DNA of 44,842 bases, from contig SOIB01000205.1 in NCBI GenBank assembly GCA_004377355.1, forward strand, positions 1 through 44,842, given 5' to 3'. The notes under the pieces are model-generated. The model had not been told where the DNA came from and searched no databases. It saw only the letters and a program-made list of their open reading frames with translations. This document shows positions 1 to 44,842 of this stretch, one piece after another. Origin of the DNA: Candidatus Stahliibacteriota bacterium. Its GTDB lineage: Bacteria; Hydrothermota; UBA3072. Within the stretch, counting starts at the first letter, position 1; every line of letters begins with the position of its first letter. The position numbers and the translations under genes were made by a program.

Positions 1-48
1 GCAAGTTTCGATGGGGTTATGGAGCGGTATGAGGATTCAACACCGTGA
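1..48 (+). CDS. Partial C-terminus of phage structural protein
   Basis: The first 15 codons are open in frame 1 and end at a TGA at 46-48. They encode the same last residues (ending ERYEDSTP) as the complete gene at 43687-44496. This is the tail end of that gene, seen again because the window wraps around the genome. Its stop overlaps the GTG start of the next gene (GTGA). Confidence 0.85.
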   Translation, partial: ASFDGVMERYEDSTP

Positions 49-518
49 AATATACAGTAAGATATGCTCATCTTGAATCTATGTCTCATCTTAAAGTTGG
101 AGATTCATTAAAGTTTGGTGATTTTATTGGAATAATGGGAACTTCAGGTCAATCAAAATTTAATCATCTTCATATTGATCTGATTTATGGATTTGTCAGA
201 AAAATTATCCGACTGAGAGAAATTGGAATTCTTAAAAGATATAAACCCTGTAAAACACAATTAGATTATTTTAAAGATGAGGATCTATTTAAATTCAAAT
301 TGGTAATAACAACTCAATATATGTGTAAAGAATATAAAAAGATTTATGGTAAGAATCATCCAGCTTATGATCTGGTTCCAAAAGATAGACATAGATCAAA
401 AGATCATTTTAAGATATATTTTAATAGAAAAAAGGTTAAAAATGTGGAAATTCTTTTTGTAGGATTTGATCAAATAGGTTACGGCTTCTGTGTTTTAATA
501 GGATATGAAACATTATGA
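45..518 (+). CDS. M23 (LytM-type) endopeptidase with permuted halves; probable endolysin
   Basis: Probable peptidoglycan endopeptidase that cuts peptide cross-links for lysis. The protein is 157 residues and starts at a GTG overlapping the upstream stop. It opens with what is normally the C-terminal half of an M23 domain: YAHL (His9), a VGD-x5-GD-x-IG stretch (residues 18-29), GTSGQS (32-37) and HLH (41-43). After a linker of about 60 residues comes what is normally the N-terminal half: HPAYD (His105, Asp109) and a GYGFCVLIGY strand near the C-terminus. All five residues expected from LytM are present (zinc ligands H105, D109, H43; catalytic H9, H41), but the order is circularly permuted. There is no signal peptide, so export would need the holin next to it. 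Assignment to M23 is confident; the permutation is read from motif order and activity is inferred. Confidence 0.8.
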   Translation: MKYTVRYAHLESMSHLKVGDSLKFGDFIGIMGTSGQSKFNHLHIDLIYGFVRKIIRLREIGILKRYKPCKTQLDYFKDEDLFKFKLVITTQYMCKEYKKIYGKNHPAYDLVPKDRHRSKDHFKIYFNRKKVKNVEILFVGFDQIGYGFCVLIGYETL

Positions 519-718
519 CAGAAAAAATGAAAAAGAAAATGGGATCAAGAAGATGGTGGATAGTTTTATGGGCAATATTATATGTTACAGGAATGTCAAT
601 TTATGGTGTAGCTGCAAATAATAGTGATGTTTGGGTTGCTATAGGAATTATTGGTGGAATTATAGTTTCTTATATGACAATTAGTTCATTAAAGAAAAGA
701 AAGGAAGGAGAAGAATGA
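515..718 (+). CDS. Putative holin, two transmembrane segments
   Basis: A 67-residue protein with a basic N-terminus, two hydrophobic segments (about residues 14-34 and 39-59) and a charged tail ending KKRKEGEE. Size, topology and charge fit a class II holin that permeabilises the inner membrane and lets the endopeptidase reach the wall. The start overlaps the endopeptidase stop (ATGA), so the two are translationally coupled. The final codons carry the purine-rich ribosome binding site used by the next two genes. Holins share little sequence, so the call rests on topology and position between a peptidase and spanin-like genes. Confidence 0.65.
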   Translation: MTEKMKKKMGSRRWWIVLWAILYVTGMSIYGVAANNSDVWVAIGIIGGIIVSYMTISSLKKRKEGEE

Positions 719-1191
719 AATGCAGAAAGTATTTAAGTATATTATTGTCGGTGTTATTGCTGTTCTCATTTTCGGTTCAGGGTTTATCACAGGATGTGCC
801 TATTCCCGTGGAACAACTAAAGGCTTGGAGCGAGAGAACGCAGAATTACAGGGATCAATTAGAAGTTATTCAGCTACAATTGAAAGCCTCAACTCAGACC
901 GTATCAGAATTGCTGGAAGAGTCAGTGATCTTGAATCAGAAATTGTTGAACTGGGAACAGAAACACCTGAAATTATTGACATCAGCGAAAGTATTGAAAC
1001 TGGACTGGGATCTTTATCTGGAAGAATCAGCGATAGCAGACAGGGAATTCAGAAAGTTGCAGATGGACTTGGAGAACTTAATTCAGAGCTACAATTCTAT
1101 ATTGAAAGGGCAGAAAATCCGTAACGGAATAATTATAGGAGAAACAGCCACAATACTGATTCTTGTACTGATTTTAATATTCGGCAGATAA
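715..1191 (+). CDS. Spanin-like coiled-coil membrane protein, outer frame
   Basis: 158 residues: a signal-peptide-like N-terminus (residues 1-25, rich in Leu), a long Gln/Leu/Glu-rich coiled-coil body (about 30-130) and a C-terminal hydrophobic segment (about 137-157). The start ATG overlaps the holin stop and uses the site GGAAGGAG. A second coiled-coil membrane protein (720-1124) lies wholly inside this gene in another frame. The C-terminal transmembrane segment extends past the end of that inner gene, which argues that this frame is real. Position after endopeptidase and holin suggests a role in outer membrane disruption, but no spanin family signature is recognised. It has no lipobox. Confidence 0.55.
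   Translation: MKCRKYLSILLSVLLLFSFSVQGLSQDVPIPVEQLKAWSERTQNYRDQLEVIQLQLKASTQTVSELLEESVILNQKLLNWEQKHLKLLTSAKVLKLDWDLYLEESAIADREFRKLQMDLENLIQSYNSILKGQKIRNGIIIGETATILILVLILIFGR
720..1124 (+). CDS. Embedded spanin-like coiled-coil membrane protein, inner frame
   Basis: 134 residues with an N-terminal hydrophobic segment (about residues 5-25) ending in FITGC (Cys26, possibly lipidated, a weak lipobox). A long heptad-patterned body follows (about residues 35-130). It starts only five bases after the outer gene and can use the same ribosome binding site (701-710). It lies completely inside 715-1191 in a different frame. The arrangement recalls Rz1 nested in Rz of lambda, where the inner gene is a lipoprotein and the outer one an inner-membrane protein. 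Both readings look like real membrane-tethered coiled coils. One could be a shadow of the other; this frame has the more convincing heptads. Confidence 0.6.
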   Translation: MQKVFKYIIVGVIAVLIFGSGFITGCAYSRGTTKGLERENAELQGSIRSYSATIESLNSDRIRIAGRVSDLESEIVELGTETPEIIDISESIETGLGSLSGRISDSRQGIQKVADGLGELNSELQFYIERAENP

Positions 1192-43686: not shown

Positions 43687-44496
43687 ATGAGTATAACAGA
43701 TTTAACAGAATTAGCAGGAAGAAGAAGTGATCCGATTTCTAAAAGATTAACCAAAGGGCTTAAACCTTGGGGGAATACTGTTGCTGAAGGAGATGAACCT
43801 GGGACTTTTGGAATTGATAAATTCGGCAGAAATCCTACAGCATCGGCTATAGGAGATGTAATCCAGGATGAAGATGGACCCATTGTAATTGAGACAGTTG
43901 CAACTGCTGTTGAACTGATTAGTTCAGACGCTCAGGATAATCCGTCAGGAACAGGGGCAAAGGCAATTTTAATACAGGGAGTGGATATAAATTGGAATCC
44001 TATCGAAGAAATACTTGCAACTAATGGGGTAACTGTTTCATCTTCTACAACACAAGAATTTCTTTATGTGTATAGAGCTAAAATAAAAAACTCTGGCGCG
44101 CAGAGAACTGCTGGGCATATCACTATAAAAAAAACTGGTGCAGGGGCTACTATGGCGATGATATACCAGGGATATGGGCAAACTCAAAAAGCAGTAATGC
44201 CGGTATTCGCAGGATGCAAGATGTATATTGATATTCTGAGATTTGAAGGTTCTAAAACCGGTTCATTAGTTGGAGAGATTATGTTAATGGAATATCAGCT
44301 AAATGAGGGAATAAGAGTTATACACTCATTAGTGTTTAAAGACAGTGATCAAAAAATTATTGAATGGCCTGAAGTTCCTAAAGTATTTCAGGAGAAGACT
44401 CTTGTGTGGATTGAGATTAGGGATGCTATTGCATCAAATGTGATGACAGCAAGTTTCGATGGGGTTATGGAGCGGTATGAGGATTCAACACCGTGA
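43687..44496 (+). CDS. Putative virion structural protein, last before lysis genes
   Basis: 269 residues. The middle (NPSGTGAKAILIQGVDINW, AGHITIKKTGAG) follows a pattern found in structural proteins of many marine podoviruses and myoviruses. Function not known. Its last 16 codons are repeated exactly at the left end of the window, and its TGA overlaps the GTG of the endopeptidase gene at both places. Confidence 0.7.
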   Translation: MSITDLTELAGRRSDPISKRLTKGLKPWGNTVAEGDEPGTFGIDKFGRNPTASAIGDVIQDEDGPIVIETVATAVELISSDAQDNPSGTGAKAILIQGVDINWNPIEEILATNGVTVSSSTTQEFLYVYRAKIKNSGAQRTAGHITIKKTGAGATMAMIYQGYGQTQKAVMPVFAGCKMYIDILRFEGSKTGSLVGEIMLMEYQLNEGIRVIHSLVFKDSDQKIIEWPEVPKVFQEKTLVWIEIRDAIASNVMTASFDGVMERYEDSTP

Positions 44497-44842
44497 AATA
44501 TACTGTAAGATATGCTCATCTTGAATCAATGCCGGATTTAAAAGTTGGTGATACATTAAAATTTGGGGATATTATTGGGATTATGGGATCTTCAGGTCAA
44601 TCAATGCACAGACATCTCCATATTGACCTGGTTAGAGGATTTGTCAGAAAGATTATCAGGTTGAGAGAAATTGGAATACTAAAGAGATATAAACCATCCA
44701 AAACACAATTGGATTATTTCAAGGACAGCGATCTCTTTAAAACCAGACTGATTACCACGACTCAATATTTATGTAAAGAATATAAAAGGATTTATGGGAA
44801 AAAACATCCAGCTTATGATTTAGTTCCAGCAGACAGATTTAT
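44493..44842 (+). CDS. Second version of permuted M23 endopeptidase, cut by window end
   Basis: 116 codons plus two bases are visible. Same layout as the gene at 45-518: YAHL, VGD/GD-x-IG, GSSGQS, HLH, linker, then HPAYD. About four fifths of residues match that copy; changes cluster around the HLH block (MHR for KFN) and in the linker. All metal and catalytic residues visible so far are kept. The gene truncates before the GYG strand. It is either another allele in the population or a diverged paralogue. Confidence 0.8.
   Translation, partial: MKYTVRYAHLESMPDLKVGDTLKFGDIIGIMGSSGQSMHRHLHIDLVRGFVRKIIRLREIGILKRYKPSKTQLDYFKDSDLFKTRLITTTQYLCKEYKRIYGKKHPAYDLVPADRF

Follow-up and report, generated by a model that had tools for sequence, protein, structure and literature searches.

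The window, by which we mean the whole stretch of 44,842 nucleotides analysed, corresponds to contig C173 in a metagenome-assembled genome of 1.8 Mb and contains the circular genome of a BPP-1-like podophage. Its major head protein is ~59% identical to those of Burkholderia phage BcepC6B and Bordetella phage BPP-1, and other podophage genes encode a portal protein (phrog_332), a terminase, and Bbp16. Close to the start of the window lies the gene for an M23 lysin whose two halves are swapped, followed by a holin-like gene and two nested spanin-like ORFs (Table 1).

Table 1 Features of the permuted lysin locus and of the contig ends.
Feature	Positions	Strand	Basis or remark
Circularly permuted M23 (LytM-type) lysin, 157 aa, GTG start	45..518	+	Translation, profiles, model, alignment
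First half of lysin, equivalent to second half of standard M23 (YAHL strand to HxH, with C-terminal extension)	45..278	+	
His9 codon, YxHL motif, equivalent to LytM His260	69..71	+	Invariant in 25 rows
His41-Leu42-His43 codons, HxH motif	165..173	+	Both His invariant
Second half of lysin, equivalent to first half of standard M23 (ITTQY..., HxxxD, G-x-V, GYG strand)	297..515	+	
Tyr97 codon, candidate oxyanion tyrosine, compare LytM Tyr204	333..335	+	Invariant; putative role after PMC9662197
His105-Pro-Ala-Tyr-Asp109 codons, Hx3D motif	357..371	+	H105 and D109 invariant
Holin-like small membrane protein, 67 aa	515..718	+	Sequence and position
Outer ORF of spanin-like pair, N-terminal signal-like segment and C-terminal TM	715..1191	+	
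Nested ORF of spanin-like pair, N-terminal TM and coiled coil	720..1124	+	Start 5 nt after outer ORF
Exact match to the 55 bases at window 1-55; assembly overlap at the join of the circular genome	44449..44503	+	
Second allele of permuted lysin	44493..44842	+	Cut by contig end after residue 116

The translated protein presents its motifs in the order YAHL (Y7-A8-H9-L10), H41-L42-H43, H105-P-A-Y-D109, and GYGFCVLIGY (residues 145–154, with the GYG at residues 145–147). The linear order of PF01551 is HxnD, GYG, YxHL, HxH; the halves are swapped with respect to it here and in every relative described below. Motif and profile features of an M23 peptidase are nevertheless present: HxnD (H105-x3-D109), HxH (H41-x-H43), and similarity of both halves to the profile. 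The invariant H9 lies 32 residues ahead of H41, fitting the third histidine of M23 peptidases (~30 residues before HxH). Y97 is also invariant, lies eight residues before H105, and is a candidate counterpart of LytM Tyr204. An in-frame TGA at 30–32 leaves only four codons upstream of the start, which rules out a missing N-terminal half. The relatives begin at the same residue, several of them right after a stop codon. A preliminary description of this DNA had proposed the swapped motif order, the presence of all five LytM-type active-site residues (H9, H41, H43, H105, and D109), and the lack of a missing half upstream; all three points hold in the translation and in the alignment of relatives.

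Near its two ends (1–55 and 44449–44503), the contig is identical for exactly 55 bases, after which the two lysin copies diverge, as fits a fork in a 55-mer assembly. The second copy is 82–83% identical to the first in amino acid sequence. It keeps YAHL, HLH, and HPAYD, and its GYG strand would lie beyond the contig end; the earlier statement that two diverged versions share the layout therefore stands for these three motifs but not for the GYG strand. Contig ends that cut through a second lysin copy might suggest an assembly artefact, or a split gene whose true order is standard. However, an independent contig in IMG/VR (L004, IMGVR_UViG_3300022542_001185, 44,573 bp) crosses the join without interruption: the gene at 43687 is followed by copy 1, and this by the genes at 515–1191. 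The order is also the same in the complete ORFs of more than 20 relatives from other contigs. Both readings, the first of which the preliminary description had also dismissed, are therefore rejected, and the probability left to them is negligible. Because L004 reads through the join, the simplest view of the second copy is that it is an allele from the population sampled, and the preferred reading of the two copies is as alleles that meet where the circular genome closes, not as paralogues. The alleles differ with dN of 0.12 and dS of 0.85 (dN of 0.11 and 0.15, and dS of 0.87 and 0.77, for two parts of the shared stretch taken separately); judged from these sequences, they are under purifying selection.

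Scans of IMG/VR with the single protein or with the two window alleles find only the window's own phage, and an alignment of eight sequences was too diverse for scanning. Addition of one Vibrio phage M23 fragment to the two alleles opened up the family, and successive scans used this query, the new relatives, and second halves only. More than 20 distinct relatives, with pairwise identities of 32–94%, are present on other viral contigs. They are recovered with patterns from either half and share the same start, order, and end. In nearly all, the ORF opens with M-x-YTVR-[YF]-AHL or a similar sequence, and most end in a GYGN or GYGH strand followed by FEA or similar residues. As so many independent relatives have the same order, chance is excluded. 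The pattern YGKxHPAYD occurs on one further contig (L026), where it falls by chance in a region that is unrelated. In an alignment of 25 rows (24 distinct proteins and the partial window allele; L052/L080, one contig with a damaged copy, is left out), residues T4, H9, L10, G32, G35, H41, H43, Q72, F76, Y97, H105, and D109 are invariant. The five M23 active-site residues are the sole invariant histidines and aspartate among them. Relatives such as L035 and L036 retain H-x-G-x-D and GYGN in canonical form, which are softened to HPAYD and GYGF in the window protein.

In native order, the match of the window protein is limited to about positions 44–87 of the Pfam M23 model and lies in the first half of the protein, for which hhalign gives 99%. 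Rotation of the protein, with the second half placed first, raises its score from 31.8 to 36.1 bits against Pfam M23 and from 43.5 to 52.7 bits against a custom profile built from 31 normal-order domains. On rotation, the best lysostaphin match increases from 19.6 to 24.2 bits and its aligned stretch from 40 to 107 residues, the alignment to phrog_7767 grows from 43 to 116 residues, and the number of phage records matched rises from 3 to 14. The rotated score against the custom profile is reached by 1 of 200–300 shuffles of the second half. The M23 score increases on rotation in 24/24 relatives, by a mean of 14.2 bits compared with ~2 bits for shuffled second halves; L036 goes from 52.5 to 79.6 bits and L035 from 48.6 to 70.8 bits. 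When rotated, these two relatives align end to end with normal M23s, with HLGYD on H-x-G-x-D and GYGN on GYG. The expectation that rotation should give a much higher score is thus borne out by relatives such as L036 and L035, but is too strong for the diverged window member, whose gains (+9 bits on the custom profile and +4 on Pfam) are below the mean of its relatives.

Half an M23 domain (residues 1–76) fused to an unrelated C-terminal domain with a chance HxxxD would need no permutation, and would agree with two results: the second half of the window protein alone has no significant match among PHROGs, and a sequential Foldseek search of the isolated second half, whose model reaches only pLDDT 83 and pTM 0.53, finds nothing in the PDB. 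However, a profile of the family's second halves is matched to the first half of M23 with 91% probability (profile-to-profile score 39; maximum score 20 in 100 column shuffles), and the rotated relatives, aligned end to end, have HxGxD, G-x-V, and GYGN at the corresponding columns of the model. The second half of M23 on its own would moreover be short of two zinc ligands, whereas here the invariance of H105 and D109 equals that of H9, H41, and H43. We consider such a fusion very improbable and retain the permuted domain.

The AlphaFold2 model of the lysin in native order, computed with 14 family members, has a pLDDT of 95.1 and a pTM of 0.90, and its strands are predicted where M23 strands are expected. 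In sequential Foldseek searches, the first half of the model overlays viral M23 lysins with 0.9–1.8 Å over 44–52 columns, no good full-length alignment to known viral lysins is obtained, and the whole model finds no M23 match in the PDB. An overlay of one part only is what a sequential aligner facing a permutation is predicted to give, but is not positive proof of one. In the folded protein, the five invariant residues would be gathered at an M23-like active site.

M23 peptidases are a large family of wall-cutting enzymes that are studied as antibacterial agents. The permuted lysin shares its motif residues and predicted strand content with the M23B/LytM peptidases (lysostaphin, LytM, and EnpA; PF01551). 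It differs from them in that its two halves have changed places, a single linker combines the segments that precede Hx3D and follow HxH, and the termini are located between the GYG strand and that of YxHL. With its M23 motifs and both halves, the lysin would be expected to work like an M23 peptidase, departing from the family in chain order. The best family matches are small phage M23 lysins (phrog_7767, phrog_3578, and phrog_14988), which are metallo-endopeptidases and endolysins; the native protein covers only positions 65–106 of the 194 in phrog_7767, whereas the rotated protein covers 6–106. The nearest precedent for the permutation is the permuted NlpC/P60 group (LRAT-like, YaeF-like), which is circularly permuted by nature and belongs to a superfamily with wall peptidases among its members (PMC6403190, PMC10318531), although its fold is cysteine papain-like and unrelated to M23.

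A permuted match is found in none of 50,697 phage records, plasmids, PHROGs (second-half matches only), BFVD, or 147 genomes of the host phylum. The matches listed in these 147 genomes outside the window are partial, mostly to the first half, and in ORFs typical of ordinary M23s. Scans of genome contigs with narrow patterns reveal no relative. The string 'permut' is absent from a 2022 review of M23 peptidases (PMC9662197), and no permuted M23, LytM, lysostaphin, or endolysin appears among the papers listed by text searches of the open-licence PMC literature. The suggestion that no permuted M23 lysin has been described agrees with the databases covered and with this literature, although absence is not proof of novelty. 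The family, which is carried by uncultured phages, is real and apparently undescribed. It falls in a blind spot of current searches: profile tools see half a domain, PHROGs give no full-length match, and sequential structure search fails.

The holin-like gene overlaps the lysin gene by 4 nt (ATGA), and its product has no family match. The holin-like and spanin-like genes of the window are assigned from sequence features. In many relatives, a gene for a small membrane protein lies beside the lysin gene and is followed by a nested spanin-like pair or by a single lipoprotein-like ORF. The clearest profile support for the cassette comes from L046, whose holin matches phrog_3427 with an E value of 1.5e-24; L044 and L051 have weak Rz-like spanin matches. 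The lysin has no signal peptide, its N-terminus being the KYTVRYAHL strand. From this absence and from the lysis cassette, we infer that the permuted M23 protein is most likely a phage endolysin, in support of the role proposed in the preliminary description. Endolysins are frequently annotated with M23 activity, but tests of it are rare (PMC9662197).

The permuted M23 fold could instead belong to a virion-associated wall hydrolase used at entry, or to a regulator. The lysin gene follows virion-type genes, the product of the upstream gene (phrog_8198) is a tail or virion protein elsewhere, and phage M23 domains are often virion-associated, as PHROG matches to tape measure proteins illustrate. 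However, the lysin is a small stand-alone protein, and directly behind its gene, in the window as in several relatives, come genes of holin-like and spanin-like type; Pfam scans of selected other ORFs of the window reveal no second wall hydrolase. In addition, the catalytic residues are kept, so the protein is not a degenerate regulator. A function other than endolysin is thus unlikely, and the protein is very probably a permuted M23/LytM zinc peptidoglycan endopeptidase that serves as the phage endolysin.

With the old chain ends joined by the linker and the new ends placed after the GYG strand and ahead of the YxHL strand, folding of the endolysin would restore the sheet and active site of an ordinary M23 domain. 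By the roles given in PMC9662197, H105, D109, and H43 would be the zinc ligands, H41 and H9 would activate the water, and Y97 may stabilise the oxyanion. The lysin would be made without a signal peptide and released through the holin encoded just downstream. It would then cut the peptide cross-links of the wall, after which the spanin-like pair would break the outer membrane.

The permuted gene probably arose when a normal M23 gene was duplicated in tandem and the outer halves were then lost. An unpermuted sister or intermediate was not found; the upstream gene (phrog_8198), followed as a lead to an unpermuted ancestor, led to unrelated contexts. One cut point and one linker are common to all members, which suggests a single permutation event. 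We tentatively propose, at somewhat less than even odds, that one ancient permutation founded a phage-only M23 clade with a fused groove-wall linker and with altered groove and bond specificity. The segments fused in this conserved linker, with its invariant Q72, F76, and Y97, are walls of the substrate groove in ordinary M23s. If this proposal is true, the permutation changed the shape of the groove and the bond specificity, beyond gene order. A natural permuted clade would show that the M23 fold tolerates new ends inside its sheet, and would offer an alternative scaffold for lysin fusions.

The nested ORFs downstream of the lysin genes are ~100–180 codons long and lie in different frames, with starts typically 2 nt apart at ATGTG, in which the ATG serves one frame and the GTG the other. 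Such offsets occur in L042 (3643/3645), L043 (4654/4656), L051 (4745/4747), L053 (4816/4818), L065 (4633/4635), L066 (4143/4145), L070 (4517/4519), L074 (4513/4515), L075 (4514/4516), and L084 (4447/4449); the two starts are 5 nt apart in the window and in L078, and 4 nt apart in L083. In the pairs read (window, L042, L043, L051, and L053), one ORF has a signal-like N-terminus and mostly a C-terminal TM, and its partner has an N-terminal TM and a coiled coil. The nested pair is possibly a dual-start spanin pair served by one ribosome site; dual-frame initiation at AUGUG has been demonstrated in E. coli (PMC9841429). In L040 (5231–5728), L044 (4678–5196), and L050 (5251–5754), the nested pair is replaced by a u-spanin-like gene, whose product has a lipoprotein-like N-terminus and a C-terminal TM.

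Three relatives carry the same permuted M23 module but are multidomain and without a nested spanin-like pair. In L082 (3038–4249), the module lies behind an N-terminal subtilase (Peptidase_S8) domain. In L037 (1501–2721) and L048 (3995–5194), it is followed by a C-terminal NAGPA (phosphodiester glycosidase) domain, which in L048 scores below the Pfam cutoff; the hosts of these two phages are perhaps single-membrane bacteria. In L052 (3900–4396), the permuted lysin is damaged, with the start MTYTVRYA in one frame and the remainder in another.
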